Source: an uncultured Actinomycetes bacterium (lineage in GTDB: Bacteria; Actinomycetota; Coriobacteriia; Coriobacteriales; RUG844). From it: a stretch of 21,715 nt of DNA. Shown here one piece after another: positions 862 to 21,548 of this stretch. The stretch covers positions 1-21,715 of the forward strand of contig OMSY01000042.1 in NCBI GenBank assembly GCA_900313875.1, read 5' to 3'. The notes beneath the pieces were generated by a model. That model was not told where the DNA came from and searched no databases. It was given only the letters and a program-made list of their open reading frames with translations. How positions within the stretch are numbered: the first letter of the stretch is position 1; each line of letters starts with the position of its first letter. The position numbers and the translations under genes are program-made.

Positions 862-866
862 GGAAC

Positions 867-1973: not shown

Positions 1974-2014
1974 GGTACCTCCAATTATGTCCAGCTTCCC
2001 GTGAGAAAGCGCGT

Positions 2015-2028: not shown

Positions 2029-2058
2029 TTTGCGACACTACGGCATTGTCAATCAACT

Positions 2059-2086: not shown

Positions 2087-2185
2087 GCCACATCTTGTCT
2101 GTTACGTACCTGATTCGACGCTGAAACGCGCCAAATCACAGCGTCAGCACACGATAGTCCTGTGCACCTTTGGCCTATACCCATA

Positions 2186-5941: not shown

Positions 5942-5948
5942 CCAGGTA

Positions 5949-5957
5949 CTCCCTCCC
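5949..5957 (-). promoter_or_regulatory. Ribosome binding site that decides the murC start
   Basis: GGGAGGGAG on the minus strand, 7 nt before the ATG at 5941. It lies inside the longer reading that would start at 5983, which is why the shorter MurC was preferred. Confidence 0.5.
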
Positions 5958-6004
5958 ATGGATTCCAGCGAGCGGATACACATGCGGAACCCCCTTGATA
6001 CAGG

Positions 6005-7105
6005 TCACTGCCCACCTCCGGCAACCTCGAGGACCGTGTCCGCGAGCAGGGACACCGCATTCGGCCTACCCAGCTCCCGTGCGGAGGATGCCATCTGGAC
6101 CCTGAGCTCCGCATCCCGCAGGAGATGGAGAAGGTCATGCGAGAGATGATCCTCCAGCTGGTCATCGGGTATCAGGACACAGGCCCCCGCCTTGACGAGC
6201 GCCCGCGCGTTCTTCGTCTGATGGTCATCGGTCGCATGGGGATAGGGCACGAGCAGGCTTGCGATCCCCAATGCGGTGATCTCGGCAAGGGAGCTTGCCC
6301 CGGACCTCGACACGATGCAATCGGAAGCCTTCAGGCAATCACCCATGTTCTCGATGTACGGGAAGACCTGCCACCTGTCACCATAGCCGGTCCCAAGTGC
6401 GGTGACGACCTCCCCATGGTTCCTCGGTCCCGAGGAATGCACGACATACAGGTCATCGATGGCCATGAGCTCATCGCGCATGGCGATGAGCGCCTCGTTG
6501 AGATGCTTGGCCCCGAGCGAACCGCCCATGACGAGCAGCATGAGCGCATCATCGGGGATACCGAGTGACCTGCGTCCACGTGCACGGTCCCCCTCGAGTA
6601 TGCTCCTGCGTACCGGGTTCCCGGTGATGACCATCCGGTCGGACGGGCAGCCCTTGAGATACTCACGTGACATCTCATAGGTAAGCGCGATGCGGTCGGC
6701 ATAATGCCCGAGCCTGCGGTTCGTGAGACCGGGTACCGAGTTCTGCTCGTGGATGACGAGTGGCGTATGGGTGCGATGCGCGGCCATACCCACCGGAAGC
6801 GACACATATCCACCGAACCCCACGACCGCCGCAGGGCGATGCTCCTCGAGATAGGCAGCTGCCTTGCGTGCGCTCCTGAGCACCTTGACCGACGAGGTCA
6901 CGAGCGTCGTCGGATGGGAGCGGTTGAACCCAGCAGCCTCGAGTGGAACGAACTCGAGCCCTTGGGCGACGGAGAGCTTGGCCTCCGGTCCCCGCGGGGT
7001 ACCGATGTAGACGACCTCATGCCCACGGCGCTCGAGCTCGAGGGCCACCGCGATGGCAGGGTTGACATGACCGGCGGTACCACCACCGCAAACCACGAAC
7101 CTCAT
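6005..7105 (-). CDS. murG: Lipid II synthase MurG (GlcNAc transferase)
   Basis: 366-residue GT28 glycosyltransferase that moves GlcNAc from UDP-GlcNAc onto lipid I to make lipid II at the inner face of the membrane. Motifs: CGGGTAGHVNPAIAVA near the N-terminus (glycine-rich loop for acceptor and diphosphate), GFGGYVSLPVGMAA, HEQNSVPGLTNR, TGNPVRRS, VMGGSLGAKHLNEAL, and the donor-binding VSRSGASSLAEI with PYPHATDDHQTKNA. The ATG overlaps the ftsW stop as ATGA and is preceded by GGAGGAGGG, so synthesis of the lipid II maker and the polymerase FtsW is coupled. Length is normal for the family. Confidence 0.97.
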   Translation of the reverse strand: MRFVVCGGGTAGHVNPAIAVALELERRGHEVVYIGTPRGPEAKLSVAQGLEFVPLEAAGFNRSHPTTLVTSSVKVLRSARKAAAYLEEHRPAAVVGFGGYVSLPVGMAAHRTHTPLVIHEQNSVPGLTNRRLGHYADRIALTYEMSREYLKGCPSDRMVITGNPVRRSILEGDRARGRRSLGIPDDALMLLVMGGSLGAKHLNEALIAMRDELMAIDDLYVVHSSGPRNHGEVVTALGTGYGDRWQVFPYIENMGDCLKASDCIVSRSGASSLAEITALGIASLLVPYPHATDDHQTKNARALVKAGACVLIPDDQLEDHLSHDLLHLLRDAELRVQMASSARELGRPNAVSLLADTVLEVAGGGQ

Positions 7106-8529
7106 GACCGTTCCCTCCTCCGCCTCAGCCTCGGGACATCATCATCGTCCCGCACGGGCGTGCCGGAGCGCCCCCTGCCCGGAGGCGACCAGTCCACGTC
7201 CTCCCAGTCCGCCCAGAACCGCTGCGGGGTGGCCGGACGCTCCATACGCCTCGAAGCACCGCCCCCGCGTCGCGACCTGACGACCCGTACCGTCTCGTCA
7301 GGCCCATCCTGGATGCCGTCGTAGACGACGAGGTCCGCACGGCTCCGACGGGCCGCCGCCTCCGGGGTCGACTGCAAGGAGATGGCGAGGAGAAGGCCCA
7401 CGAGGATGAAGGTCGACAGGAGCGAGGAACCACCCGAGGACACGAAGGGAAGCGGCTTGCCCGTGACCGGGAACATGCCCACGGCACAGTACATGTTGAG
7501 GAATGCCTGGAACCCGATGACCACGGTCGCGCCACCGGCAACCATCCTGCCGAAGGGTGTCGAGGCCTGATAGGCGATCCTGAGGCCGGCTACGACGAAC
7601 GCGATGAAGAGGGCGACGATGACGAGCGTGCCGACGAGACCGAGCTCCTCTCCGATGATGGCGAATATGAAGTCGGTATGCCCCTCGGGAAGGTACCCGT
7701 ACTTCTGACCGGAATGACCGAGACCCGAACCGAGAAGCCCCCCACTACCCAGGGCATAGAGCGAGTTCTGTACCTGGTACTCGCCACCTTGGGCGGCCTC
7801 GGTGCTCCCGATACCCAGGAACGAGAGCACGCGTTGCATGCGATAAGGCTCTGCGATGATGCCGATGATGCCAACGACGAACACGATCCCCAGCACACCG
7901 AGAATGAGCCGGGAATCGAGCTCACCGACCCACATCGTGCTGAGCACGGTGACCAGGATGATGATGGAGGTCCCCAGGTCGGGCTGGATGACGATGAGCG
8001 CCGTCGGGACGAGGACCGCAGCGCCCGCCTTCACGGCCAGCTCCCTGAGCTCGATCCCACCATCCAGGAAATCGGCGAGATAACCCGCCATGATGACGAG
8101 GATGACGACCTTGGCGAACTCGGACGCCTGCAAGGTGCCGAACCCCACGTTGATCCAACGCTTCGCGCCGTATTGGGAGATGCCGAAGGCAGCCGTGCAC
8201 AGGAGCAGGAAGACCTCGACCCCCCAGAGCGCCCAGACGAGGCGCTTGCGTGTGAAGATGCGATGGTCGAGACGCGAGAGCACGAATGCGATGGATACCC
8301 CGAGCACCACATAGACCAGATGACGGGACAGGTAATGGTAGGAGGGATGCCCTTCCTTGACCGCCTGATAGGTGGATGCGGAGTAGACCATCACGATGCC
8401 GATGAGGGTGAGCGCGGTGACGCTCAGCAGCAGGACCATGCAGGGCATGGTCAACTGCACGGACGTGGAGGACTGCTTGCGCAGGGAAGAGGGGATGCGT
8501 TGTATGCGCTGCGATGCGATGGAGAACAT
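7102..8529 (-). CDS. ftsW: SEDS glycosyltransferase FtsW
   Basis: 475-residue polytopic membrane protein of the SEDS family, the septal peptidoglycan polymerase that works with the class B PBP. About ten hydrophobic segments are seen, starting with MPCMVLLLSVTALTLIGIVM near residue 30. The signature region YQVQNSLYALGSGGLLGSGL followed by PEGHTDFIFAIIGEELG is typical, as is GKPLPFVSSGGSS near the end of the membrane part. The cytoplasmic C-terminal tail of about 95 residues is Arg-rich (ends RLRRRRERS) and also has acidic patches. An in-frame stop 18 nt before the ATG fixes the start region, but no good Shine-Dalgarno is next to it; a purine-rich GGGAGGAGGAGG stretch lies about 45 nt upstream. 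A 91-bp gap with a -10-like TATAAT separates it from murD. Confidence 0.95.
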   Translation of the reverse strand: MFSIASQRIQRIPSSLRKQSSTSVQLTMPCMVLLLSVTALTLIGIVMVYSASTYQAVKEGHPSYHYLSRHLVYVVLGVSIAFVLSRLDHRIFTRKRLVWALWGVEVFLLLCTAAFGISQYGAKRWINVGFGTLQASEFAKVVILVIMAGYLADFLDGGIELRELAVKAGAAVLVPTALIVIQPDLGTSIIILVTVLSTMWVGELDSRLILGVLGIVFVVGIIGIIAEPYRMQRVLSFLGIGSTEAAQGGEYQVQNSLYALGSGGLLGSGLGHSGQKYGYLPEGHTDFIFAIIGEELGLVGTLVIVALFIAFVVAGLRIAYQASTPFGRMVAGGATVVIGFQAFLNMYCAVGMFPVTGKPLPFVSSGGSSLLSTFILVGLLLAISLQSTPEAAARRSRADLVVYDGIQDGPDETVRVVRSRRGGGASRRMERPATPQRFWADWEDVDWSPPGRGRSGTPVRDDDDVPRLRRRRERS

Positions 8530-8610
8530 GGTGTGTTTCTGCTTCGTCTAGGGTCCGTCTATGGTACGTCTGCCGCCTCCTCCTCCCGGAAGAAGCGAAG
8601 CTGGTCTCCC

Positions 8611-8616
8611 ATTATA
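8611..8616 (-). promoter_or_regulatory. Possible -10 box before ftsW
   Basis: Perfect TATAAT on the minus strand 4 nt after the murD stop. No matching -35 and no extended -10 TGn are seen at normal spacing, so this is only a candidate internal promoter for ftsW-murG-murC and beyond. It would give a leader of about 75 nt. Confidence 0.3.
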
Positions 8617-8620
8617 CCTG

Positions 8621-10042
8621 TTACAAGCCGTTCACATAGCCCTTGAACACCGATCCGCGTTCCTCGAACCCGCTGAACTCGTCGAATGAGGAGCAGGCGG
8701 GCGAGAGCAGGACGACATCACCGGGCACCGCGATGTCCCGGGCGGCGAGAAGGGCCTCCTTGAGATGGGGCGCCCGGAGAACCTGCACACCACTCCCCTC
8801 GAACGCCCCGGCGAAGCGTCCCTGGGCCTCGCCGAAGCAGACGACCGCCTTGCAGGCCCCGGAGCAGGCACGCACGAGCTCCGTGAGGTCGGTGCCCTTG
8901 TCATGCCCCCCGAGCAGCACGATGAGCGGGTCATCGGGGAAGGCGGTGAGCGCCTTGCCGACCGCATCGGTGTTGGTCGCCTTCGAGTCGTTGAAATACC
9001 GTACCCCGTCCTTGACGCCACAGGGCTCGATGCGGTGCTCGAGCGGCTGGAAGGTGGCCAGCGCCGCCTCGATACCCGCCGGGTCCGCACCGCATTGCAG
9101 CGCGGCGGCACCAGCGGCAAGCGCGTTGACCATGTTGTGCGCACCCTTGATGGCAAGATCGGAGGCAGGGCCGAGGTCGACGGGCTCCTTCCCCGGCAAC
9201 CAGACCCTGAGCCTGCCATCACGGACCGCCGCACTCCCCTCCTCCTCCAGGGAGTCCGGTGCGGTGATGCCCAGCATGCGGATCCCGCCACGCACCGCAA
9301 GGCTGCCCGCATGGGCGGCGGCGCCCTCGTCTGCCATGTCCACGATGGCGAGGGCATCCGGCGAGAGATTGCCGAACAGCTTCATCTTCGCCTCGGCATA
9401 CGCTTCATGCGTGCCGTGCCAGGCAAGATGGTCGGGGGTGATGTTCAGGAGGATGGCCGCCTCCGGCGAGAGGTACCTGGAGGAGGCGAGCTGGAACGAG
9501 GAGAGCTCGGCGACGAGATAGGTTCCCGGTTCGCGTTCCCGCACGGCGGTGATGCAGGGGTCGCCGATGTTCCCGACCGCACGCGCGGCGATACCGCAAC
9601 CCTCGAGCAGATGGGTGGCGAGCACCGTCGTGGTGGTCTTGCCGTTGGTCCCGGTGATACCCACCCAATGCTCGGGAGAGACCCGGTAGGCGAACTCGGG
9701 CTCGGACACGATGTCCCCGCAGACTGCAGCCGCACTCCTGTAGAAACCGCTCAACTGCGAGATACCGGGGCTTGCCACGCAGAGGTCGAAAGGACCCTCG
9801 ACCTCCTCGCCGAAACGCACCTCGACACCCGCATCGATGAAGGGTCTGGCAGCCTCGCGGTTGGACCCGGTATCCGCACCTGCATAGATGACGAAGCCAT
9901 CGAGGAGATCCTCACCGGAGGAGAGCGCCTCGAGGAGGAACCGGGCACATGCCGTGCCACTCACACCCATGCCGAGGATGCATACCCTCCCGAAACGCGG
10001 CCTGGCAGGAAGCGTGGCGAGGAACGCGGGGAAGTCCATCAT
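8621..10042 (-). CDS. murD: UDP-N-acetylmuramoyl-L-alanine--D-glutamate ligase MurD
   Basis: 473-residue cytoplasmic Mur ligase that adds D-Glu to UDP-MurNAc-L-Ala. It has the N-terminal VCILGMGVSGTACARFL, the P-loop GTNGKTTTT (131-139), GNIGDP (157-162), AELSSFQL (178-185), ITPDHLAWHG (201-210) and the region AEAKMKLF with the lysine expected to be carbamylated. The C-terminal domain shows HRIEPCGVKDGVRYFNDSKATN and LGGHDKG, both typical. Start is one of two adjacent ATG codons, with AAGGAG 11 nt upstream; the gene begins 16 nt after the mraY stop. Length is within the family range. Confidence 0.96.
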   Translation of the reverse strand: MMDFPAFLATLPARPRFGRVCILGMGVSGTACARFLLEALSSGEDLLDGFVIYAGADTGSNREAARPFIDAGVEVRFGEEVEGPFDLCVASPGISQLSGFYRSAAAVCGDIVSEPEFAYRVSPEHWVGITGTNGKTTTTVLATHLLEGCGIAARAVGNIGDPCITAVREREPGTYLVAELSSFQLASSRYLSPEAAILLNITPDHLAWHGTHEAYAEAKMKLFGNLSPDALAIVDMADEGAAAHAGSLAVRGGIRMLGITAPDSLEEEGSAAVRDGRLRVWLPGKEPVDLGPASDLAIKGAHNMVNALAAGAAALQCGADPAGIEAALATFQPLEHRIEPCGVKDGVRYFNDSKATNTDAVGKALTAFPDDPLIVLLGGHDKGTDLTELVRACSGACKAVVCFGEAQGRFAGAFEGSGVQVLRAPHLKEALLAARDIAVPGDVVLLSPACSSFDEFSGFEERGSVFKGYVNGL

Positions 10043-10058
10043 GAGACTGGCATCTCCT

Positions 10059-11096
10059 TCAGAGCGAATGGGCGAAGAACAGGGCGAATCCCAGGCAGGC
10101 GAACATGCCGGTCACGATCCAGAAGCGGATGACGACCTTGGTCTCCGTCCATCCTTTCTTCTCGAAATGATGATGGAGCGGCGCCATGAGGAACACGCGT
10201 TTGCGCGTGCGCTTGAAGTGCACCACCTGGATGATGACGGAAAGGGCCTCGATGATGAAGATGCCCCCGATGATGAGCGAGAAGAGCTCGGTCTTGGTCA
10301 TGACGGCGATGGCGGCAAGCGCCGCACCGAGGGCAAGCGACCCGGTGTCACCCATGAAGATGTCCGCGGGATAGCAGTTGAACCAGATGAAGCCGATGCA
10401 ACCACCGGCAAGAGCGGCGGCGAACAGCGCCATGTCGAGTTGGTCGGTGCGGAACGCGATGGCGGCCATGATCCCCATGGCGATCATCACCGTACCCCCC
10501 GCGAGGCCATCGAGACCGTCGGTGAGGTTGACGGCGTTGGACATACCGGCCATGAGCAGGAAGATGAAGATGAGGTAAAGCCACGGGATCCTGATGCCCC
10601 CGTCCGACAACGGGATCGTCGTCGTGAGGACCCCGAGGTCGATCCCCCTGCCACTGAAGACCTCGGTGACCACGGGGCTGATGTTGCACAGGTTCACGGC
10701 GACAAGGCAGAACAGCGTCGAGATGGCCGCCTGCCCGATGAGCTTGGCATGAGGCGTGAGGCCGAGGGAACGTGCATGGGCGACGCTCGAGACATCATCC
10801 ACGAAACCGAGCACCCCCGTGAGCAGCGTCGCCGATATCGCAAGAAGGCTCGGCAGGTCGGGGCGTGCGAACAGGAACGTCGTGATGCTCACCGAGAGCA
10901 GGATGATGATGCCCCCCATCGTCGGCGTGCCCTGCTTCACAAGATGGCGCTGCGGTCCATCGGCGCGCACCTGCTGGCCGATATGACGCGCATGCAGGAA
11001 GCGGATGAACAACGGAAGCAGGACGATCGTGATGAGCATCGCCACCAGCGCTGCGAGGAAGACCTGGAAGGTCGGGAAACTCGAGGCTACCGTCAT
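10059..11096 (-). CDS. mraY: Phospho-MurNAc-pentapeptide translocase MraY
   Basis: 345-residue integral membrane enzyme that transfers phospho-MurNAc-pentapeptide from UDP to undecaprenyl phosphate, giving lipid I. About ten hydrophobic segments are present. The catalytic motifs are the Asp pair in GFVDDVSSVAHARSLGL (D100, D101), NAVNLTDGLDGLAGG (187-201), GDTGSLALG (249-257) and the conserved histidine motif APLHHHFEKKGW (305-316). The start was set at the ATG 1 nt after the murF stop (TGAGATG), which gives the normal family N-terminus; the reading frame runs further upstream inside murF, but that part is Ser/Arg-rich shadow sequence. Confidence 0.96.
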   Translation of the reverse strand: MTVASSFPTFQVFLAALVAMLITIVLLPLFIRFLHARHIGQQVRADGPQRHLVKQGTPTMGGIIILLSVSITTFLFARPDLPSLLAISATLLTGVLGFVDDVSSVAHARSLGLTPHAKLIGQAAISTLFCLVAVNLCNISPVVTEVFSGRGIDLGVLTTTIPLSDGGIRIPWLYLIFIFLLMAGMSNAVNLTDGLDGLAGGTVMIAMGIMAAIAFRTDQLDMALFAAALAGGCIGFIWFNCYPADIFMGDTGSLALGAALAAIAVMTKTELFSLIIGGIFIIEALSVIIQVVHFKRTRKRVFLMAPLHHHFEKKGWTETKVVIRFWIVTGMFACLGFALFFAHSL

Positions 11097-11097
11097 C

Positions 11098-12525
11098 TCA
11101 ATCCACCAACCCCTCCACGATGCGTTCGAGTCCCATCGCATGGGAGGCCTTGACGAACAGGACGTCGCCCTCCATCGCGATCGAGCGCAGAAGCGCGATA
11201 GCCTCATCGGTGGTGTCGAACTGGAAGATCGAATCGGCCTTGAGGCCTGCATTGCATGCAGCCGATGCGATGTTGCGCGACAAGCGCCCGACGCAGACGA
11301 GGAGGTCGACACCACGCCGTGCGACCAGCTCCCCTATCCTACGATGCATCGACACGGAATCCGCCCCCAGCTCGCCCATGTCGCCGAGCACGGCGATGCG
11401 GCGACCGTCGGCCTTGATCGAGGCAAGGGTCTCGAGCCCCGCCGCCATCGATTCGGGATTCGCGTTGTAGGCATCGTTGATGACCGTGATGCCACCATGG
11501 CCATGGACGACCTCCATGCGCATCCCCGTGACCTGCACGCCTTGCGCGAAGGCCTGCTCCACCCGGTCGGACCCGATGCCGAGCGCGTAGGCGACCGCGA
11601 TGGCGGCAAGCGCGTTGCGCGCATTGTGCTTGCCGGGGATGGGAAGATGTACCTCGAACGATTGCTCGTCGGGAAGCTCGGCGCAAAACGTCGGGCAGGC
11701 ATCGTCATCGAGCACGAGCCCCGTGCCCCGGATGGTGCAGCGGTCCGAGAACCCGTAGGTGATGACCCCGCATCCCTTGGGATGGCAGAACCGGTCGATG
11801 AGGAACGGTGTGAAATCATCATCACCACAGAGGATGGCGATCCCGCCGTTGTCCGGAAGGCCGGCGATCATCTCGCCCTTGGCGAGGGCGATGTTGCGCC
11901 GGCTGCCGAGCAGCTCCATATGGCTTGCGCCGATGTTGGTGATGACGGCGATGTCAGGACGGACGAACGAGCAGAGCTGCTCGATCTGATGGAAGCCCCG
12001 CATCCCCATCTCGACGACGAGCGCCTGCGTGCGGTCATCTGCGGCGAAGACGGTCTGGGGAACCCCGAGCTCGTTGTTGTGGTTCTTCTCGGTCGCAACG
12101 GTCACGAGCGTCGAGGAGAGCACCGAGGCGATGAGGTCCTTGGTCGTCGTCTTGCCACTCGACCCCGTCACGCCGATGACCCGGGCCCCGAGCCGGTCAC
12201 GGTACCAGCCCGCCAAGGTGGCGAGCGTGGCATGCGCATCCTCGGTGAAGACGATGTGCGATTCGAACTCGCCCGCCTGCGCACGCAGGGCAGCGGAGGG
12301 CTCCCGGGTCGCGATGACGAGCGGACTGCCTGCCTGCAACGCCTTGAAGATGAAGTCGTTGCCGTCGACATGCTCACCGGGCAACGCGACGAAGATGCTC
12401 TGGTCGGTGACCTCACGCGAGTCCCAGCATAGGTGCGTGACCCGACGGGGAGGACGCGCGTAGGGAGGCTGTGAAGGAGCCTCGCCCAGGACGGCGAGCA
12501 ACGCGTTGACTTCGATGGGCATCAT
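11098..12525 (-). CDS. murF: UDP-MurNAc-tripeptide--D-Ala-D-Ala ligase MurF
   Basis: 475-residue cytoplasmic Mur ligase that adds D-Ala-D-Ala to finish UDP-MurNAc-pentapeptide. Seen are the N-terminal CWDSREVTDQSIFVALPGEH typical of MurE/MurF, the P-loop GSSGKTTT (121-128), NHNNELGVP (148-156), VVEMGMRGFHQIEQL (170-184), HNARNALAAIAVAYALG and NDAYNANPESM in the central and C-terminal domains. The start is one of two adjacent ATGs; the first overlaps the murE stop as ATGA. GAGGAG lies about 11 nt upstream inside the end of murE. The product feeds MraY, whose gene follows 1 nt after the stop. Confidence 0.96.
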   Translation of the reverse strand: MMPIEVNALLAVLGEAPSQPPYARPPRRVTHLCWDSREVTDQSIFVALPGEHVDGNDFIFKALQAGSPLVIATREPSAALRAQAGEFESHIVFTEDAHATLATLAGWYRDRLGARVIGVTGSSGKTTTKDLIASVLSSTLVTVATEKNHNNELGVPQTVFAADDRTQALVVEMGMRGFHQIEQLCSFVRPDIAVITNIGASHMELLGSRRNIALAKGEMIAGLPDNGGIAILCGDDDFTPFLIDRFCHPKGCGVITYGFSDRCTIRGTGLVLDDDACPTFCAELPDEQSFEVHLPIPGKHNARNALAAIAVAYALGIGSDRVEQAFAQGVQVTGMRMEVVHGHGGITVINDAYNANPESMAAGLETLASIKADGRRIAVLGDMGELGADSVSMHRRIGELVARRGVDLLVCVGRLSRNIASAACNAGLKADSIFQFDTTDEAIALLRSIAMEGDVLFVKASHAMGLERIVEGLVD

Positions 12526-13988
12526 AGGCGGTCGAGCTCCTCACCGGCGACGAGACGGTCATCGAAATCGATGGTCCTGTCGCCGAGTATCTGATAGTCC
12601 TCATGCCCCTTCCCCGCGATGAGGATGCAATCACCCGGCTGCGCCAGGTGGATGGCGGCGCGGATGGCGGACCGACGGTCGGGCTGCACCTCGACCTGCG
12701 AGGACGCACCCTCCATACCGGGAAGGATATCGGCGATGATGGCCTCGGGGTCCTCGCTGCGGGGATTGTCGCTCGTGACGATGGCGATGTCCGCCTTCGT
12801 CGCGGCAGCACCCATCTTGGGGCGCTTCCCGCGGTCCCGGTCCCCACCGCATCCGAACACGACGATGGTCCTCCCCTGCGCGACCTCCTCGACGACGTCG
12901 AGGGCCTTGATGAGGGCATCGGGGGTATGGGCGTAGTCGACGAGCACGGTGATCCCATGCCGTTCCCCGCCCGGCACACGCTCGAGCCTGCCCGGTGCGT
13001 GCGGGGCGCGTGCGAGCGCGGACACGATCGTGTCGAGGGGGATGCCGAGCTCGAGGCAGATCGTGATGGCGAGCACGGCATTGCTCACGTTGAAGCGGCC
13101 GACGAGTGGGATGCTGACCTCGGTACGCCCCTCCCCATGGAGGAGCGTGAACCGGGTATCCTTCCCCGAGTAACGCATGTCCACCGCGCGGATATCGGCA
13201 TCCTCCGCAAAGCCGCAGGTGACCACCGTATGACCCGCCTTGCGCGCAGCTTCCACCACACGGCGCCCATATCCATCATCGATGCAGACGGCGCAGGAAC
13301 CCACCTCGTGACCTTCGAACAGCCTCAGCTTGCAGGCGAAGTACTCCTCGAGCGTGTGGTGATAGTCGAGGTGGTCCTGCGTGAGGTTGGTGAACGCCGC
13401 AACGGCGAACCGGGTACCGATGACGCGGTCGAGATCGAGCCCCTGCGAGGAGACCTCCATGACCGCGGTGTCGACACCGGCATCGACCATGTCGGCGAGC
13501 AGGTGCTGGAGGTCGAGCGACTCGGGCGTCGTATGCTTGGAGGGAAGATGCTCGTCGGCGATGCGCGTCTCGACCGTGCCGATGAGCCCGGTCCTGTGCG
13601 CTGCCATGCGGGCGACCCACTCGACCAGATAGGTCGTCGTGGTCTTGCCGTTCGTGCCGGTGATGCCGACGAGGGCCAGATGCTCGGATGGATACCCGAA
13701 AAACGCCGCGGAGGCCTCCGCGAGCGCCTTGCGGGAATCATCCACGATGAACTGGGGGACATCGAGGTCGAGCGCATGCTCGCAGACGAGAGCCGCGGCA
13801 CCACGTGCGACCGCATCGGGGGCATAGTCATGTCCATCCGCCTTGAAACCCACGACGCAGAAGAACACATCCCCAGGCTGCACCTGGTTGGAAGCGTACG
13901 CGATGCCACCGACCTCGAGGTCGTCTGCCGCATCCGAGGTGTAACCGACCTCACGCAGCAGGGTCGCCATCGTCTTGCGAGCTGTCAT
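12522..13988 (-). CDS. murE: UDP-MurNAc-tripeptide synthetase MurE (meso-DAP type)
   Basis: 488-residue cytoplasmic Mur ligase adding the third residue of the stem peptide. It has the P-loop GTNGKTTTT (111-119), EVSSQGLDLDRV (178-189), the carbamylated-lysine region YFACKLRLF (K220), VDYAHTPDAL (350-359) and FGCGGDRDRGKRP (378-390). DNPR at 407-410 is the motif that in known MurE enzymes reads the free end of meso-diaminopimelate, so a DAP-type wall is inferred. The ATG at 13988 has GGGAGGG 5 nt upstream and matches family starts; longer readings (ATGs at 14006 and 14024, or up to 14114 inside ftsI) have poorer sites. The 122 bp between ftsI and murE show no clear promoter. Confidence 0.96.
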   Translation of the reverse strand: MTARKTMATLLREVGYTSDAADDLEVGGIAYASNQVQPGDVFFCVVGFKADGHDYAPDAVARGAAALVCEHALDLDVPQFIVDDSRKALAEASAAFFGYPSEHLALVGITGTNGKTTTTYLVEWVARMAAHRTGLIGTVETRIADEHLPSKHTTPESLDLQHLLADMVDAGVDTAVMEVSSQGLDLDRVIGTRFAVAAFTNLTQDHLDYHHTLEEYFACKLRLFEGHEVGSCAVCIDDGYGRRVVEAARKAGHTVVTCGFAEDADIRAVDMRYSGKDTRFTLLHGEGRTEVSIPLVGRFNVSNAVLAITICLELGIPLDTIVSALARAPHAPGRLERVPGGERHGITVLVDYAHTPDALIKALDVVEEVAQGRTIVVFGCGGDRDRGKRPKMGAAATKADIAIVTSDNPRSEDPEAIIADILPGMEGASSQVEVQPDRRSAIRAAIHLAQPGDCILIAGKGHEDYQILGDRTIDFDDRLVAGEELDRL

Positions 13989-13993
13989 GTCGT

Positions 13994-14000
13994 CCCTCCC
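13994..14000 (-). promoter_or_regulatory. Ribosome binding site that decides the murE start
   Basis: GGGAGGG on the minus strand, 5 nt before the ATG at 13988. The competing upstream ATG at 14006 has its GAGGAG directly abutting the start codon, which is too close. Confidence 0.55.
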
Positions 14001-14110
14001 GGACATCTCCTCAAACCGGTTCATACTAGCGCATGCCCCCGCTCTCCGCACAGTACCACACGAAACCTCCCCTTGTTCACCAGCAAACGGCATGCCCTGC
14101 CCCACAGACC

Positions 14111-15970
14111 TCACGCAGGCGCAAGCTTCATGTGCTTGGCCACATAGCTCATGACCTGCGAGAAGGTCCAGGTTCCCTTGGTGCCGGGGCCTGCGTTGTA
14201 GATGGAGACCGAGCAGACGAGCTTCGAGGAGGTGTTGGGGAGGTATCCGATGAACCCCACGTTCGACTTGCTCTTCGTGTAGGTCCCGGTCTCCTCATCG
14301 AGATACTGGGCAGTCGCGGTCTTGCCGGCAGCGGTGTACCCGTAGACCTTGGCGGTCTTGCCGGTGCCGTTGGCGACGACCTGCTCGAGCATGTAGGTGA
14401 CCTCCTCGGCCGTCTGCGCACTGACCGGCTGCGAGGTGGGCCAATCGATGGTCTCATCGGAACCGGGCTTGCTCAGCAGGAAATGCGGCGTGCACATGAC
14501 GCCCTCGTTCGCGAAGACGCCGAAGGCCCGTGCCATCTGCAACGAGTTCGCGGAAAGCCCCTGACCGAACGGCAGGTTCTGACCGGTGACGCCGTTCCAC
14601 TGGGATGGTTCGGCGAGCAGCCCGGTGGCCTCACCCGGGAAATCCACCCCACAGCTCTCCCCGAACCCGAACGCCTTCATGTAGTTGTAGAAGGTCTCGT
14701 CGCCGATGGTCCGTTCCACGAGGTCGATACCGATGTTTGACGAACGCTCGATGATCTCCGTGAGACTGATATGGAGGTCACCATGGGTGTCATCGTCACG
14801 GATGATGACATCGTAGACCGGAAGCTCGGAGGGGACATCGAACATCGTGTCGACCTCCACCTTGTCCTCGTTGAGCGCTGCAGCTGCAGTGACCGCCTTG
14901 AACGTCGAGCCCGGCTCGAATGCCTTGGTGACGGCGGTGCAGCGTTTGGTCGCATCGTCTGAGTTGCGCACATCGTCCGGGTCGGGCAGAGGCGCGGAGG
15001 CACAGGCATAGATCTCACCTGTCGCCGCATCATACAACACCACATTGCCACCCTCGGCCCCGCAGGTCTCGACGTAATCCGCAAGGCATTGCTCGGCATG
15101 ACGCTGGAGCTCGAGATCGATCGTGCAGACGATATCATGTCCGTCGACTGGGTCGACCTGTTCCGCCTTGCCCCCCTCGATGGGGACGTTGCTCCCACGG
15201 ACGGTCTCCACCTGCCGCGAGCCATCGGTTCCGCGGAGCACATCATCATATTGCGCCTCCAACCCGGAGAGCGCCTCACCATCGGAGTTGAGCAGACCGA
15301 CGACCTGCACCGCGGTCGCCCCGTTGGGGAACACGCGCTTGTAGTCCGGGGTGAAGGCAAGTCCCTTGATGTCAAGCTCCATGATCTGCTCTGCGATCTC
15401 GAGATCGCACTGGCGCTTGACGTAGCAGAACCTGTTCTCCTTGTCGGCAAGAAGCCCGAAGAGCTCTTCGCGCTTGTTGGCGATGGCCGTCTCACGGTCC
15501 ACGGGGGTGGGCGTGGGGCTGGGTGTCTCCTCCCCTTCCTCCTCATCTTCGGGAGTCGGGGTGGGAGTGGGGGTGGGAACAGGGCTCACGATGGCCCCGT
15601 CGGAATCGTCATTCGAGGGAATCCCGTCGGCTTCCACGAGCAGTGGGGCAAGCTTGTCGACAGCGTCCTGCACATCATCGATCTGCGAGGGATCCGCGCT
15701 GATGGTCCTGCATTCGACGGTCGTGGCGAGTACCGTGCCGTTGCGGTCGTAGATGGTTCCCCGCCGGGCGGGCAAGGTGAGCGTCTTGCCGGAATGCTGG
15801 TACGAGGCGGACTCGGAATAGGACCCGTGCCTGATGACCTGGACATAGAACAGGCGCAGGAGCAGGAGTGCTGCAAGGGCGATGAAGAACGTCCAGACCC
15901 AAGGACCCCGGCTCGAGGACACCTCAGGGGACGCGGCACCCCGGGAACCGTTCCCCCTCATCCGCGCCAT
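14111..15970 (-). CDS. ftsI: Septal class B penicillin-binding protein (FtsI/PBP3)
   Basis: 619 residues. A short basic cytoplasmic tail is followed by one membrane anchor (about 23-43), the pedestal domain with ARRGTIYDRNGTVLATT (68-84), an unusual acidic Pro/Thr-rich insert (about 127-160, PTPTPTPTPEDEEEGEE), and the transpeptidase domain. Active-site motifs are STFK (355-358, catalytic S355), SSN (410-412) and KTA (550-552) in AAGKTATAQ, where KTG is the rule. It cross-links septal peptidoglycan outside the membrane and pairs with FtsW. No PASTA domain follows. The gene starts 5 nt after the ftsL stop, with GAGGG close to the ATG. FtsI is preferred over other class B PBPs because of position in the cluster. 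Confidence 0.95.
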   Translation of the reverse strand: MARMRGNGSRGAASPEVSSSRGPWVWTFFIALAALLLLRLFYVQVIRHGSYSESASYQHSGKTLTLPARRGTIYDRNGTVLATTVECRTISADPSQIDDVQDAVDKLAPLLVEADGIPSNDDSDGAIVSPVPTPTPTPTPEDEEEGEETPSPTPTPVDRETAIANKREELFGLLADKENRFCYVKRQCDLEIAEQIMELDIKGLAFTPDYKRVFPNGATAVQVVGLLNSDGEALSGLEAQYDDVLRGTDGSRQVETVRGSNVPIEGGKAEQVDPVDGHDIVCTIDLELQRHAEQCLADYVETCGAEGGNVVLYDAATGEIYACASAPLPDPDDVRNSDDATKRCTAVTKAFEPGSTFKAVTAAAALNEDKVEVDTMFDVPSELPVYDVIIRDDDTHGDLHISLTEIIERSSNIGIDLVERTIGDETFYNYMKAFGFGESCGVDFPGEATGLLAEPSQWNGVTGQNLPFGQGLSANSLQMARAFGVFANEGVMCTPHFLLSKPGSDETIDWPTSQPVSAQTAEEVTYMLEQVVANGTGKTAKVYGYTAAGKTATAQYLDEETGTYTKSKSNVGFIGYLPNTSSKLVCSVSIYNAGPGTKGTWTFSQVMSYVAKHMKLAPA

Positions 15971-15975
15971 GGCCC

Positions 15976-16467
15976 TCAGTCCCCGGACAGGAGGTCCATC
16001 TCGTCATCCGAATCCCCGACGACGTAGGCGGAGAACGTACCCGTTATGGAGATGTCGCCCTTGGAATCGGTGGCGACGACATCATCGGAAAGATACAGGT
16101 AGTTGCCCGAGACACGCTCGGTCATCCCAAGCTTCCCCTCGGCAACCGAGGAGATGCGGTCGGGTGAATAGAGCTCTGCCTGCTCGGATTCGAGTAGGGT
16201 ACCCTCGGTACGCAGGGTGTTCACATCGGCAAGCTTGGACGCGTTCTGGGTCTGCAGGTCCGCGCTGGCGGCAGTGACCGCCACACGTGCGATCCCGATG
16301 ACGGCGAGCATCAGCAGGATGACGATGACGCCCCTGACCAGACTCCAGAGCGAGGGGTCGACGTCTTGACGTGGAACCGTGCGCTCATCGTTGGTGAGGA
16401 CCCTGAGGCCATCGTATCTGGGTGCACGTTGCGTGTTGTCGCGATACGCGCGTGCTGCCTGAGCCAT
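15976..16467 (-). CDS. ftsL: FtsL-like septum formation protein
   Basis: 163-residue bitopic protein: polar cytoplasmic N-terminus (1-43), one membrane segment (about 44-66), a heptad-like outer stretch (about 68-100) and the motif LYSPDRISSVAEGKLGM (99-115), which matches the short helix seen at the end of FtsL/DivIC coiled coils. A 45-residue acidic tail follows, longer than in most FtsL proteins. FtsL joins FtsQ and FtsB/DivIC and helps switch on FtsW-FtsI. The call rests on topology, motif and position between rsmH and ftsI; sequence is poorly conserved in this family. GGAGG lies 6 nt before the ATG. Confidence 0.85.
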   Translation of the reverse strand: MAQAARAYRDNTQRAPRYDGLRVLTNDERTVPRQDVDPSLWSLVRGVIVILLMLAVIGIARVAVTAASADLQTQNASKLADVNTLRTEGTLLESEQAELYSPDRISSVAEGKLGMTERVSGNYLYLSDDVVATDSKGDISITGTFSAYVVGDSDDEMDLLSGD

Positions 16468-16497
16468 ACGCAGCCTCCCTCCTCGTGCATTCGACGG

Positions 16498-17469
16498 TCA
16501 TCGACCGTCCTGGTCCAGTTTTCGGGCAACACGCATCCGTGCGGACCGTGCCCGAGGATTCCGCTCCACCTCCTCGTCGCCCGCCATGATCGGCTTACGT
16601 GTCATGATCTGCAATACCGGCTTGTTGCCACACACGCAGACCGGGAGGTCCGGTGGGCAGGTACATCCCTGGGACAATCTTGAGAAGCACTCTTTCACGA
16701 TGCGGTCCTCGAGCGAGTGATAGCTGATGACCACGATACGACCCCCTGGCAGCAGCCAACGCACGGCGGCGTCAAGCCCCTGCCTGAGCATGTCGAGCTC
16801 CTGGTTGACCTCGATGCGCAAGGCCTGGAACGTGCGCCTTGCCGGATGACCCCCCTTGCGTCGCGCAGATGCGGGGATCGCATCCTTCACGATGGCGACG
16901 AGCTGGTCCGCGGTCTCGATCTTCGACGTGGCGCGTGCCTTGACCACGAACTGGGCGATGCGCGATGCCCATCGCTCCTCACCGTAGTCGCGAAAGATCC
17001 GGGTGAGGTCTGCTACGTCATAGGTGTTGATGACCTCTGCTGCCGTTTTGGTGTGTTTCCCCGGATCCATACGCATGTCCAGGCGGGCATCCCCGTGATA
17101 GGAGAAGCCGCGCTCGTGGAAGTCGAGCTGGGGCGAGCTGACGCCCAGGTCGAACAGGATGGCGTCAATCCCGGGGACCTCTGCTGTGATAAGGAGTTCG
17201 TCTAGGTCCCCGAAATTGCCGCGCAAAAGAAGTGGCTGCATGTGTGGTGCGATTGCGGAGAGCTGCTCGGCAGCCGCATCCAGGGCCGCTTGGTCCTGGT
17301 CGATGCCGATGAGCAGACCGCTTGGTGCGATTCTGGCTTCCACTTCTCGAGAGTGTCCCGCCCCGCCCAAGGTGCAGTCGACGAACGTATCCCCTTCATG
17401 GAGATCGAGCGCCTCGAGCACCTCGTCGAGGAGGACCGGGATATGCCGGTATTCAGATGTCAAGCTCAT
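16498..17469 (-). CDS. rsmH: 16S rRNA m4C1402 methyltransferase RsmH (MraW)
   Basis: 323-residue SAM-dependent enzyme that methylates N4 of C1402 in the decoding centre of 16S rRNA. Family motifs: HIPVLLDEVLEAL (9-21), DCTLGGAGHS (31-40), GIDQDQAALD (55-64), FDLGVSSPQLD (106-116), RGFSYHGDARLDMRMD (120-135), DYGEERWASRIA (161-172), KGGHPARRTFQALRIEVNQEL (205-225), ISYHSLEDRIVK (248-259) and RNPRARSARMRVA near the end. A Cys cluster (C269, C271, C278, C280) is also typical. The start chosen overlaps the mraZ stop as ATGA; a longer reading into mraZ adds 28 residues with no family match. Confidence 0.97.
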   Translation of the reverse strand: MSLTSEYRHIPVLLDEVLEALDLHEGDTFVDCTLGGAGHSREVEARIAPSGLLIGIDQDQAALDAAAEQLSAIAPHMQPLLLRGNFGDLDELLITAEVPGIDAILFDLGVSSPQLDFHERGFSYHGDARLDMRMDPGKHTKTAAEVINTYDVADLTRIFRDYGEERWASRIAQFVVKARATSKIETADQLVAIVKDAIPASARRKGGHPARRTFQALRIEVNQELDMLRQGLDAAVRWLLPGGRIVVISYHSLEDRIVKECFSRLSQGCTCPPDLPVCVCGNKPVLQIMTRKPIMAGDEEVERNPRARSARMRVARKLDQDGR

Positions 17470-17909
17470 GCGCTGGTCTGGTCCTTGCCGAAGACGAGCT
17501 CGTCGAGCGTGGGAGCCGCATCCATGAATGCGTTCCAGCGGTCCGTATCCCACATCTCGATGTGGTTGCCCTTGCCGATGACGGTCACCGACTTCCCGAG
17601 ATGGGTATCGGCCCGCAGCTGCGCGGGTACGTTGACACGACCTGCCGAGTCGACCGGCACCTCATGCGATCCTCCGCGGACCATGGTGTCGATCTGGTCG
17701 TGCCTCGGGTTGGTCGGGTCGAACCCTCCCTCACCGAAGAACCCATCGAGCCAGCTCTCGAACTCCTCATCCGTAAAGACGAACAACGCCTCATGGAGAC
17801 CCTTGACCAAGATCACCTTGTCGGGAAGCACCTTGCGGAACGGGGCAGGCAGCGCCACACGGCCCTTGCTGTCCATGTTGTGACAGTAGTTGCCTCGAAA
17901 GCCCGCCAT
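17466..17909 (-). CDS. mraZ: MraZ transcriptional regulator
   Basis: 147-residue protein with two AbrB-like MraZ halves, carrying DSKGR (13-17) and DSAGR (87-91), the paired DNA-contact motifs of the family. MraZ rings bind direct repeats before their own gene and set dcw expression; repression is known in Escherichia coli. The start MAGFRGNY is the normal family start and has GGAGGAGGG 3 nt upstream; a longer reading to 17978 crosses the promoter. A matching set of 10-bp-phased GTGG boxes lies inside the predicted promoter just upstream, so autoregulation is likely. First gene of the cluster. Confidence 0.97.
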   Translation of the reverse strand: MAGFRGNYCHNMDSKGRVALPAPFRKVLPDKVILVKGLHEALFVFTDEEFESWLDGFFGEGGFDPTNPRHDQIDTMVRGGSHEVPVDSAGRVNVPAQLRADTHLGKSVTVIGKGNHIEMWDTDRWNAFMDAAPTLDELVFGKDQTSA

Positions 17910-18320: not shown

Positions 18321-19526
18321 ATGGAGACCCATGCCATCGACATCTACCTCGACCATGCCGCTGCGACACCCGTCGATGCCCGGGTGCTCGCTGCCATGCT
18401 CCCCTACTTCACCGAGCGCTTCGACAACCCGTCGGCCCCCTACGCACGTGGACGAGCGGCCAAGCAGGCGCTTGAGGACGCGCGTGGCAGACTTGCCCGC
18501 GCCATAGGCGCCAAGCCAGCGAACGTCACGCTCACCGCCGGCGCAACGGAGGCGAACAACCTCGCATTCGGATGCGTGGACGGGCCGGTGGCCGTGAGCG
18601 CCATCGAACACGAGAGCATCATGGCGATCGTCGAGGCACGCGAGCATGCGACCATCCCCGTCGAACCGGATGGCATGGTCACGCCTGCCGCCGTCCAGGG
18701 AGCGCTCACACCGAGGACCGAGCTCGTGAGCATCGCCTTGGCGAACGGCGAGATCGGGACGGTCCAGCCGCTGCGCGCCATCTCCGATGTCGTACGCGCA
18801 GAGCGTCGACGCCGCCTCGATGCCGGTGAGGAGACCCCCCTGTACCTGCACACCGATGCCACGCAGGCCGCCGGACTGCTTCACGTAGACGTGTCATCGA
18901 CCGGTGCGGACCTCGTCACGCTCTCCGCCGCCAAGATCTACGGCCCCAAGCAGGTCGGTTTGCTTTGGGCACGTGATGGCATCGCACTCAGGCCCCTCGT
19001 GCTGGGCGGAGGACAGGAGCATGGTCTCCGCGGCGGCACCGAGAACGTCGCCGGTGCCGTCGGGTTCGCCTGTGCACTCGAACTCGCCATAGGAGAGCGC
19101 GTGGAGGAGTGCAAACGCCTGTCGGCTCTCCGCGACACCATGCAGCGGACGCTTGTCGAGCGTTTCCCCGATGCGGTCGTCTCGGGACCACGCAAGGAAG
19201 CACGCAGGCTCCCGCATCTGCTGCACATCTCGTTCCCCGGGCTCGAGGCACGACGGCTCGTCATCGCCCTCGACCGACGTGGGGTGAGCGTGGGCACGGG
19301 AAGCGCCTGCGCCGCGAGCAAGATGCGCACCTCCCGCACGCTGCAGGCGATAGGCCTCGACCGAAGCATCGCGGACGGTAGCCTGCGCATCACGCTCGGA
19401 AGGCCCACGACCGAGGAACAGGTACGGGACGCGGTGGACATCATCGGCGATGTCGTGGCTGCGGAGTACGCTCGCGTGGCAGCCCAGCATGACTGGAGCG
19501 AGGACAGGGGGAACCATCATGGGTGA
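18321..19526 (+). CDS. Cysteine desulfurase, IscS/NifS family
   Basis: 401-residue PLP enzyme that takes sulfur from cysteine as a persulfide and hands it to acceptors. Motifs: IYLDHAAATPVDARVLAAML (8-27), TAGATEANNLAF (72-83), SAIEHESI (93-100), HTDATQAAG (177-185), the PLP-lysine site SAAKIYGPKQVG (K205), GGGQEHGLRGGTENV (229-243) and the active-site loop GSACAASK (C330). The residue before the PLP lysine is Ala where family members usually have His (SxHK). It overlaps mnmA by 8 nt, so its main acceptor is probably MnmA, giving 2-thiouridine in tRNA; Fe-S cluster work is possible but no iscU or sufU is in view. It is divergent from mraZ. The start lacks a clear Shine-Dalgarno; a leaderless mRNA is possible. 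I leave the symbol open because iscS and nifS types cannot be told apart here. Confidence 0.92.
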   Translation: METHAIDIYLDHAAATPVDARVLAAMLPYFTERFDNPSAPYARGRAAKQALEDARGRLARAIGAKPANVTLTAGATEANNLAFGCVDGPVAVSAIEHESIMAIVEAREHATIPVEPDGMVTPAAVQGALTPRTELVSIALANGEIGTVQPLRAISDVVRAERRRRLDAGEETPLYLHTDATQAAGLLHVDVSSTGADLVTLSAAKIYGPKQVGLLWARDGIALRPLVLGGGQEHGLRGGTENVAGAVGFACALELAIGERVEECKRLSALRDTMQRTLVERFPDAVVSGPRKEARRLPHLLHISFPGLEARRLVIALDRRGVSVGTGSACAASKMRTSRTLQAIGLDRSIADGSLRITLGRPTTEEQVRDAVDIIGDVVAAEYARVAAQHDWSEDRGNHHG

Positions 19527-20664
19527 GCGTGTCGTGGTCGGGATGAGCGGCGGGGTGGACTCGGCGCTTGCGGCAGCGCTCCTCGTCGAACGGGGATATG
19601 ACGTGCTCGGCGTCTACATGCGCAACTGGACCGCGGACCTGCCCGGCTTCACCTGTCCATGGGCAACCGACCTCGCGGATGCGGAACGCGTGGCCGTCGG
19701 ACTCGGCATCGACCTCGAGGTATGGGATTATGAGGCCGAATACAAACGCGAGGTCGTCGACCATCTCGTCGACTGCTATCAGCACGGGATCACGCCCAAT
19801 CCCGACGTCATATGCAACGAGAAGATCAAGTTCGGCCTGTTCGCCGAACGCGCCCTTTCCCGTGGCGCCGACTACATCGCAACCGGACACTACGCCCGCA
19901 CGGTACCGGGTACCCAAGTGGTACCGGGTACCGAAGTGGTACCGGGTACCAACCGGGTTCCGGGAACCGACCGGGTTCCGGGAACGAGCGGCACCACGGG
20001 TCGGCTCCTGCGCGCTGCCGACGAGCACAAGGACCAGACCTACTTCCTATGGCGCGTACCGGGTACCGTTCTCTCGCGGACCCTCTTTCCCATCGGTGAT
20101 ATCCCGGACAAGGGCACGGTACGCGAGATGGCACGGGAACGGGGCATCGAGGTCGCCGGCAAGAAGGACTCGACCGGCATCTGCTTCATCGGCGATATCG
20201 GTATCAGGCAGTTCCTGCTTTCCCAGCTCGATTCCCAGCCAGGGGATATCATCGACCATGAGACCGGCGAACGGATCGGCAGGCATGACGGTGCCTTCCT
20301 CTACACGGTCGGACAACGCAGGGGGCTCGGAATCGGAGGCGGACCCGTCCGCTACGTGGTACGCACCGATACAAAGGCAGGCATCGTTTATGTGACATCG
20401 GACAGGGAATGCCCCTTGCTGTGGATGAGGGAACTGCACCTTCGCGATACACACTGGATTGCGGGACATGCACCCCGTCCAGGACATTATGAGATACGCA
20501 CCCGCCACACCCGGGCGCTTGTCGGAGCCATGGTCGAACATGGACAAGGCGCTACCGCGCATCTTGTCCTCGACCGGCGCGAACCAGCCATCGCACCCGG
20601 TCAGTCCGTCGTCGTCTACGACGGACTCGAGTGCCTCGGGGGCGGAATCCTGGAGCGTTGCTGA
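19519..20664 (+). CDS. mnmA: tRNA-specific 2-thiouridylase MnmA with repeat-encoded insert
   Basis: 381-residue enzyme that adenylates and then thiolates U34 of tRNAs for Lys, Glu and Gln. The PP-loop SGGVDS (10-15), the first catalytic Cys in NPDVICNEKIKF (C99), ATGHYAR (121-127), KDQTYFLWR and the second catalytic Cys in STGICFIG (C222), plus YTVGQRRGLGIGG (262-274), are all intact. Between GHYAR and LLRAADEHKDQ the protein carries five VPGTxx hexapeptides (129-158), encoded by five 18-bp DNA repeats; other MnmA proteins have a short loop there. A further VPGT at 180-183 fits without extra length. The start chosen has AGGGGG 7 nt upstream and overlaps the desulfurase gene by 8 nt; the longer frame adds 23 residues with no family match. 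The enzyme is probably active because the insert falls in a naturally variable loop. Confidence 0.96.
   Translation: MGERVVVGMSGGVDSALAAALLVERGYDVLGVYMRNWTADLPGFTCPWATDLADAERVAVGLGIDLEVWDYEAEYKREVVDHLVDCYQHGITPNPDVICNEKIKFGLFAERALSRGADYIATGHYARTVPGTQVVPGTEVVPGTNRVPGTDRVPGTSGTTGRLLRAADEHKDQTYFLWRVPGTVLSRTLFPIGDIPDKGTVREMARERGIEVAGKKDSTGICFIGDIGIRQFLLSQLDSQPGDIIDHETGERIGRHDGAFLYTVGQRRGLGIGGGPVRYVVRTDTKAGIVYVTSDRECPLLWMRELHLRDTHWIAGHAPRPGHYEIRTRHTRALVGAMVEHGQGATAHLVLDRREPAIAPGQSVVVYDGLECLGGGILERC
19902..19986 (+). repeat. Five-copy 18-bp tandem repeat inside mnmA
   Basis: Cores start at 19902, 19920, 19938, 19956 and 19974, exactly 18 bp apart. Each is GGWWCC-G-GGWWCC: three GGTACCGGGTACC, one GGTTCCGGGAACC and a last copy with its final C changed to G. 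Five-nt linkers separate them (caagt, gaagt, aaccg, gaccg). Since 18 is a multiple of three the frame is kept and each unit reads V-P-G-T-x-x. A lone near-copy lies at 20055-20067. Confidence 0.95.
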
Positions 20665-20675
20665 CCGACCGCTTT

Positions 20676-20876
20676 GGTTCCCGGTACCATATGGCATCCC
20701 ATTGGTTCCCGGTACCCGGTACCCTATTGGTACCCGGTACCCTATTGGTTCCCGGTACCATATGGCCAGCCCGCTCTGGTTCCCGGTCCCATTGGTTCCC
20801 GGTACCATATGGCCAGCTCACTTTGGTTCCCGGTACCATATGACGGCTCTTCCCGGTTCGTCCGGTTCCCGGTACC
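20676..20876 (-). repeat. Nine-copy inverted-orientation repeat array after mnmA
   Basis: This nearly fills the gap between mnmA and the methyltransferase gene. Plus-strand cores of the form GGTTCCCGGTACC or GGTACCCGGTACC start at 20676, 20704, 20711 (overlapping the previous), 20729, 20747, 20778 (degenerate, GGTTCCCGGTCCC), 20794, 20825 and 20864. Three steps (20711, 20729, 20747) keep the 18-bp period seen in mnmA; others form a longer 31-bp unit with ATATGGCCAGC after the core (20747, 20794). Against the mnmA copies the orientation is reversed. No gene is seen within it; the open frames through it are products of the repeat. Confidence 0.93.
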
Positions 20877-20921: not shown

Positions 20922-21548
20922 ATGGACGAGCACGGACTGTTCGGCGGAAACCCGGCGTTTCCCGAGGGGGCAGAAGGCCTCGCCATGCTCGACCGCATGA
21001 ACGGCGGCGCGCACGAGCAGCTGGCATCATGGGGGTTGTCCCTTTGCCGCCTCGACCCCACGGCACACGTCCTCGACATCGGCTGCGGAGGCGGGGCCAA
21101 CCTCCTCAGGATCCTCAGCCTCTGCCCCCGGGGGCACGTCACGGGAATCGACCCCGCCCCCGCCTCCCTCGCGAAGTCATCAGCTGTCTGCGCTGCCGAA
21201 ATCGAACGGGGAGCCTGCTCGGTGCTGAAGGGCAACGTGACGGAGCTGCCCTTCGACGATGCCTCCTTCGATGCCGCAACCGCATTCGAGACCGTGTACT
21301 TCTGGACGGATCCCGAAACCGCCTTCGGTGAGGTCCACCGCATCCTGCGCCCAGGGGGTATGTTCCTCATCTGCAACGAGACCGACGGAACGGACCGCAA
21401 GGCACATGAGCAGGGCGACCCCCTGGAGGGCATGAGCATCTATACGGGCGAGGAGCTCGAACGCTTGCTGAAAGGGGCCGGCTTCCCGGAAACCGATGTG
21501 CGCTCCAAGCCCGGTTCGCATCATATCGCGGTGATTGCCCACGCTTAG
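20922..21548 (+). CDS. Class I SAM-dependent methyltransferase
   Basis: 208 residues. It has a Rossmann-fold methyltransferase core of the UbiE/Methyltransf_11 kind: motif I VLDIGCGGG (50-58), an acidic end of strand 2 in GIDPAPASL (75-83), LPFDDASFDAATAFETVYFW (109-128) for motif II, and EVHRILRPGGMFLICNE (137-153) for motif III. The substrate cannot be told from the sequence; proteins of this kind act on small molecules as well as lipids and quinones. The gene shares strand with mnmA but is separated by the 201-bp repeat array, so co-transcription is uncertain. Start set by AAGGAGGG. No membrane segment or signal peptide. Confidence 0.88.
   Translation: MDEHGLFGGNPAFPEGAEGLAMLDRMNGGAHEQLASWGLSLCRLDPTAHVLDIGCGGGANLLRILSLCPRGHVTGIDPAPASLAKSSAVCAAEIERGACSVLKGNVTELPFDDASFDAATAFETVYFWTDPETAFGEVHRILRPGGMFLICNETDGTDRKAHEQGDPLEGMSIYTGEELERLLKGAGFPETDVRSKPGSHHIAVIAHA

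Follow-up and report, generated by a model that had tools for sequence, protein, structure and literature searches.

A family of palindromic DNA repeats translated within housekeeping genes of an uncultured Coriobacteriales bacterium

Introduction

Does a run of five VPGT-headed hexapeptides in the tRNA thiolase MnmA belong to the enzyme, or is it repetitive DNA that is read as protein? The question is raised by a 21,715-nucleotide stretch of an uncultured Coriobacteriales bacterium, hereafter the window (contig OMSY01000042.1 of assembly GCA_900313875.1). The genome (G000) is an 80%-complete MAG of 1.16 Mb in 217 contigs. Homologues of its proteins labelled Olsenella, Atopobiaceae, Coriobacteriales, Adlercreutzia and Eggerthellaceae also suggest this order. 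VPG is a turn-forming motif, and the original prediction, made from the window alone, considered an elastin-like flexible arm near the active site as well as an insertion that is simply tolerated. Housekeeping genes can contain in-frame minisatellites, for example the 6-bp repeats of mutL, where the number of units shifts without a change of frame.

Results

An array of 18-bp units in an intact mnmA gene

The window MnmA scores 370.8 bits against the equivalog model NF001138 (cut-off 284), its frame is intact, and its Pfam domains are HUP, PRC-barrel and beta-barrel. C99 and C222, which we take to be the catalytic cysteines, are present, and both columns are invariant in the MnmA alignment. 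With a score above the cut-off and both cysteines in place, the description of an otherwise intact tRNA thiolase holds; on its sequence the product is a tRNA 2-thiouridine synthase, and thiolation of U34 is predicted. The NifS/IscS-like cysteine desulfurase encoded immediately 5' of mnmA, with a gene that overlaps the mnmA start, is the likely sulfur donor. On the other side, the start of the methyltransferase-like gene was chosen within an open reading frame that opens at 20877. The minus strand from 867 to 17553 carries a run of genes that we take, by look, to be the dcw cluster of cell-wall and division genes (ftsZ, murC, murG, murD, murF, murE and others). No tRNA gene was found in the window, and an RNA family was ruled out there, as a search with gathering thresholds gave no Rfam match.

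Table 1. Features of the mnmA locus in the window, and protein genes on other contigs of the same genome that contain the repeat
Feature	Location	Strand	Basis or detail
NifS/IscS-like cysteine desulfurase	18321..19526	+	best NifS 309 bits, below model cut-off 530.75
mnmA, predicted tRNA 2-thiouridine(34) synthase, 381 aa	19519..20664	+	NCBIfam NF001138, Pfam domains, predicted fold
Five 13-bp palindromes, 18-bp steps	19902..19986	+	motif scan, TRF; code for (VPGTxx)5
Sixth mnmA near-copy, 1 mismatch, WRVPGTV	20055..20067	+	motif scan
Intergenic array, nine palindromes	20676..20876		motif scan
Methyltransferase-like gene 3' of intergenic array	20923..21548	+	best 70.6 bits, below model cut-off 155
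RarA-type AAA ATPase	contig C169 (L053) 35-1792		VPGT/EPGT-rich stretch before MgsA_C part
XseB, C-terminal tail of three 54-bp units	contig C92 (L060) 2301-2795		unit heads 2583, 2637, 2691

The 13-bp core of the repeat, GGTWCCSGGWACC, is a palindrome. Within mnmA it starts at 19902, 19920, 19938, 19956 and 19974, in steps of exactly 18 bp, a period that was also called by TRF. The core is exact in four of the five units and has one mismatch in the fifth. The units encode residues 129–158, VPGTQV-VPGTEV-VPGTNR-VPGTDR-VPGTSG (DNA 19903–19992), which lie between GHYAR and the KDQ motif in the HUP domain. The (VPGTxx)5 loop that had been read from five in-frame 18-bp units is thus confirmed in its coordinates, its period and its intact frame. 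The term tandem copies stands for the period and the count, with two amendments: the units are alike but not identical, and the same repeat also fills the intergenic DNA downstream. The window contains 23 matches to GGTWCCSGGWACC with at most two mismatches, against 1.75 expected, and none of 100 shuffles reached 23. The sixth near-copy in mnmA (Table 1) is probably native sequence, because at this place several relatives that lack the array show WRVPG with T, S, R or E as the next residue.

Length variation and predicted structure of the MnmA loop

The comparison set comprised the best 120 of 8000 scored MnmA homologues. Among these 120, the stretch from GHYxR to KDQ measures 14–75 residues; it has 18–20 residues in 88 and at least 24 in 26, against 43 in the window MnmA. 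Unrelated tandem repeats are found at the same loop, namely APSASVP in P0044 (labelled Olsenella uli), SHPPTSMWQK in P0068 and a 12-residue unit in P0051. Because the stretch varies so widely and holds unrelated repeats in some homologues, the site is judged from the alignment to be permissive for both length and sequence. An AlphaFold model computed with 25 sequences has a mean pLDDT of 87.0, and among solved structures it is matched best by those of MnmA, 2hma, 2det, 2deu and 2der. The pLDDT falls below 50 at residues 132–156 (numbering of the 380-residue model), which form a hairpin tip flanked by two short strands. According to this model the VPGT loop is probably flexible and disordered, and it is presumed to be close to neutral for thiolation. 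An elastin-like functional arm is not what the model returns, which is just a low-confidence, probably disordered hairpin tip.

Natural versions differ by whole hexapeptides

Among the homologues examined, the VPGT array was found solely in the window MnmA and in two near-identical proteins. The window MnmA has five units, P0001 (98% identical) has six and P0002 (97%) has three; the next relative, P0003 (83%), has TAPGADS at the spot, a single turn that amounts to one degenerate unit (APGADS). The corresponding lengths of 357, 369, 381 and 387 residues differ by whole hexapeptides. P0001 and P0002, like the XseB variant P0242 described below, are protein sequences alone, from contigs without a stated source. 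It had been anticipated that a change in copy number would alter the protein by six residues at a time without a frameshift, and the near-identical proteins with 3, 5 or 6 units, together with the one degenerate unit of P0003, bear this out across the aligned relatives. The absence of the VPGT array from the other homologues agrees with a conserved enzyme to which an array was added. Orthologues in unrelated actinobacteria with a non-repetitive loop of equal length and composition had been named as what would make the loop an old protein feature. The outcome is mixed: tolerance of length is indeed old, as relatives have long loops, but the VPGT array itself is confined to three proteins.

The wider form of the palindrome, GGWWCCSGGWWCC, was absent from all 23 mnmA loci inspected from 22 other genomes of the order. 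The mnmA gene of genome G044 has a single AVPGTP at the array spot, encoded by GGTTCCCGGGACG, which is two mismatches from the motif. The order contains two types of MnmA, about 50–62% and about 32–38% identical to that of the window. Both occur in genome G024 (contigs C161 and C219), which suggests replacement or transfer, judging from the sequences.

The palindrome is repeated across the genome

The exact 13-mer occurs 44 times in the 1.16 Mb of G000, where the base composition, taken from 81.6 kb of contig pieces, predicts about 0.33. A search of 394 further genomes in the order gave at most three copies in each, and other relatives, in a set of 60 genomes that includes G000, have at most one. 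The inference of repetitive DNA behind the MnmA loop is borne out by these 44 copies of the same 13-mer. All were located, and they are spread very unevenly over 8 of the 217 contigs. Read on one strand they fall into three forms, 25 GGTTCCCGGTACC, 12 GGTACCCGGTACC and 7 GGTTCCCGGAACC. Thirty-seven of the 44 lie outside genes as bounded here, partly by hand. The repeat is therefore high-copy, dispersed and mostly intergenic, as REPs are. It constitutes a lineage-specific family that is read as protein in housekeeping genes. Six of the 434 contig ends are within 25 bp of an exact copy (binomial p ~ 2e-9 for 14 clusters), from which it follows that the arrays probably interrupt the assembly and that the true number of copies is likely to exceed 44.

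In the window, the intergenic array opens 12 bp past the mnmA stop codon. Its palindromes start at 20676, 20704, 20711, 20729, 20747, 20778 (one mismatch), 20794, 20825 and 20864, with spacings that are not tied to three. Sigma-70 promoters were looked for around this array and none was found between 20500 and 21100; a hairpin of the single repeat was also considered and is too weak (-0.4 kcal/mol). On another contig (C203, L054, about 2166–2387), a longer repeat surrounds the palindrome, TTTACC(A/T)TTTCGGTAGTGGTACC, in three copies, downstream of a presumed tyrosine-recombinase-like open reading frame on the minus strand.

Arrays within genes keep one reading frame

Neighbouring copies in the same gene are separated by a multiple of three in 10 of 10 cases (mnmA, rarA, xseB); outside genes this holds for 14 of 41 (Fisher one-sided p = 1.5e-4). 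The genic spacings come from three genes and are non-independent. One mismatch and a slightly wider motif were permitted in this count, with gene bounds partly set by hand. When the probably native copy at 20055 is left out, 9 of 9 genic spacings are multiples of three. All seven exact genic copies, of which mnmA has four, rarA two and pyrG one, read VPGT. With at most one mismatch there are 26 genic matches, 17 of which read V/E-P-G-T. The other nine are in other frames, each a lone near-copy (murG, murE, murJ, dgt, trmFO, xseA twice, dxs and a methyltransferase gene), and are taken as chance native sequence. A pattern of VPGT codons cannot tell frames apart, since it is itself palindromic in DNA; it occurs 91 times in the 1.16 Mb of G000 (51 in the backward control) and 4–69 times in each of 39 other genomes of 1.2–3.4 Mb.

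In conserved protein genes the repeat lies in frame at mnmA, rarA and xseB. The RarA stretch that links the AAA part to the C-terminal part measures 140 residues, compared with 71 residues and three EPGT in P0122 and 25–38 residues in eight other aligned homologues; its excess over most homologues is about 100 residues. Measured by pattern in 85 of 120 homologues, it exceeds 38 residues only in P0121 (140), P0122 and P0225 (45). Of the 83 other RarA homologues measured, 15 have a single E/V-PGT. In XseB the tail units are headed by EPGTE and recur every 54 bp, and the repeat there is worn. The 146-residue XseB P0242, known as a protein only, is shorter by 18 residues in the tail, which is one unit, and all three remain in P0243 (87% identical; a protein from an NCBI MAG with the label Actinomycetota bacterium). 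The copy in pyrG (CTP synthase; contig C19, L037, 2739–2751) is a lone exact 13-mer read LVPGTK.

A candidate transposase gene

A gene for a Y1_Tnp (IS200/RAYT-like) protein is located at 62–1027 of contig C1 (L040). It scores 42.7 bits with Pfam and 53.1 bits with REP_Tyr_transpos, for which the NCBIfam cut-off is 80. The contig, possibly foreign, has a GC content of 0.54, and the repeat is present on it in two exact copies and several near ones. REPs go with a RAYT transposase gene that the repeat flanks. No exact 13-mer is present in the 61 bases before the gene, where the contig starts, or in about 1.4 kb after it; the closest near-copy is 270 bp downstream, within the next gene. Genes for Y1_Tnp proteins occur in 28 of the 60 genomes, G000 included, and the other 27 have at most one copy of the 13-mer each. 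The C1 protein is a candidate for the mover of the repeat and no more.

Discussion

Origin of the in-frame arrays

The following explanation is considered likely as a whole. A REP-like short palindrome with the core GGTWCCSGGWACC would have multiplied in this lineage, chiefly as intergenic arrays, with some arrays within genes. It reads V-P-G-T in one frame only, and E-P-G-T once its first arm is worn. Genes keep in-frame arrays with spacings divisible by three because V/E-P-G-T is readable in that single frame, as was seen in three genes. The mnmA array occupies a length-tolerant, probably neutral hairpin loop, and replication slippage or recombination between near-identical 18-bp units would add or remove six residues each time. 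Its seed was probably a lone native (V/A)PG turn of the kind that close relatives have at this place. Since those relatives have a single turn there, the array may have arisen from a native seed whose sequence came to match the genome repeat.

A stronger version, possible though rather unlikely, is that the palindrome captures native V/A/E-P-G-T turns, converts them and multiplies them in frame. This would lengthen loops of several enzymes and produce a reversible length polymorphism within the species, with possible effects on tRNA thiolation and repair. It is supported by the single turns at the MnmA spot in G044 and P0003 and by those in the 15 of 83 RarA homologues. The LVPGTK of pyrG would then be a seed just captured.

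Alternative explanations

The palindrome could be a selected DNA or RNA signal (an operator, a terminator, an mRNA stabiliser, or an uptake or segregation site) whose genic copies are spill-over. Its symmetry and the intergenic arrays are in keeping with this, the mnmA array transcript has a better fold than any of 200 shuffles (z -4.7), and one terminator-like site exists at 20729–20741. However, a lone 13-mer lacks a stable hairpin, two folded intergenic pieces gave z values of -1.9 and +0.1, the spacing is irregular, the single terminator-like site compares with 0.4 expected, and the 44 copies are confined to 8 of 217 contigs, all of which makes a signal improbable. Decidedly improbable is a purely local minisatellite, that is, a native VPGT run grown by slippage in mnmA and linked to the intergenic copies by GC-rich codon choice only: the 13-mer is in excess in G000 alone among the genomes searched in the order, and a second array starts only 12 bp after the mnmA stop. 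What speaks for such local growth are the AVPGTP of G044 (GGTTCCCGGGACG), the APGADS of P0003 and the unrelated local repeats that other lineages have at this loop.

That the array is a selected flexible arm of MnmA, for instance for contact with tRNA or the sulfur donor, with the DNA repetition secondary, is very improbable. The turn-forming VPG, the position in the HUP domain, with GHYAR on one side and KDQ on the other, and the intact DNA of the units would suit an arm, but the same 13-mer fills noncoding DNA and recurs in the unrelated RarA and, worn, in XseB; moreover, P0003 does without the array, the stretch varies freely in length and sequence, and the pLDDT of the loop is below 50. 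An assembly artefact or a mis-binned contig is hardly credible. The MAG is fragmented, the window MnmA is closer to those of other families than to those of two family members searched, and C1 has a lower GC content (0.54). However, the longest exact repeat in the mnmA array is 17 bp, which is short relative to usual assembly k-mers, separate three- and six-unit proteins exist, and exact copies lie on eight contigs of the bin. The distant MnmA match is no proof of contamination, because two MnmA types occur in the order and G024 has both.

Relation to known repeats

The preferred explanation, a REP-like repeat read in frame, shares with mutL-type minisatellites the frame-neutral change of units and differs from them in that the unit belongs to a genome-wide palindromic family. 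Rickettsia palindromes (RPE) occupy both intergenic and genic sites; in conserved proteins they stand in frame and are apparently tolerated (PMC2229807, PMC10969869). The present repeat is like them in this. However, RPE are long stem-loops of 105–146 bp (PMC2229807), whereas the core described here has 13 bp and no stable hairpin, and near-identical proteins here differ in their number of units. REPs (GTAG/CGTC), with which RPE-4 and RPE-6 were equated in their shorter CGTC form, are likewise short palindromes, mostly intergenic and sometimes intragenic; their intragenic dimers or groups code for 20–30 residues and clusters for 43–82, and their targets include many DNA synthesis and repair genes and some tRNA pseudouridine synthase genes (PMC3733652). 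Given these published insertions in tRNA-modification and DNA-repair genes, and the permissive stretch in MnmA, calling the repeat invasion of such a gene unusual was an overstatement. The core of 13 bp is nonetheless shorter than the 20–40 bp of REPs, no exact copies stand beside the Y1_Tnp gene within its contig, and no GTAG or CGTC was found by eye at a fixed place in the flanking columns of the 44 copies. PARCEL elements also yield tandem protein repeats from dyad-symmetric DNA, but their motif is amphipathic, has 25 residues and often occurs in membrane-targeted proteins (PMC2996958), whereas the unit here is a six-residue VPGTxx in housekeeping enzymes. The repeat thus behaves like RPE, REP and PARCEL and falls outside their definitions, with a shorter core, no GTAG/CGTC tag and no long stem-loop.

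No description of this repeat was found in searches of open-licence literature. As far as the available parts of the RPE, REP and PARCEL accounts go, the lineage is outside those they name for short palindromic repeats read as protein, and near-identical proteins that differ by whole units, as found here in natural versions at two genes, mnmA and xseB, do not appear in them. As MnmA proteins with one, three, five and six units exist, it is directly testable whether inserts of this kind are passengers without effect or a source of new protein parts.

Similar arrays in other genomes

A contig scan of other genomes for two near copies, possibly excluding the genome of the window, returned 32 stretches. 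Of the 27 inspected, about half are tandem copies in 7-bp steps and the others are pairs with different spacings. One Chitinophaga pinensis MAG accounts for ten of the 32 (L068, L075–L078, L083, L086, L087, L095 and L097) and one Rhodospirillaceae MAG for two, so that other genomes may hold families with the same core. The Rhodospirillaceae MAG (Ww273; L082 and L096) has arrays of GGTACCCGGTACCAACAATTCAA, which has the same palindromic core, on two contigs. In the Chitinophaga MAG, L068 and L075–L077 are tandem copies in 7-bp steps, and those of L078 are looser.
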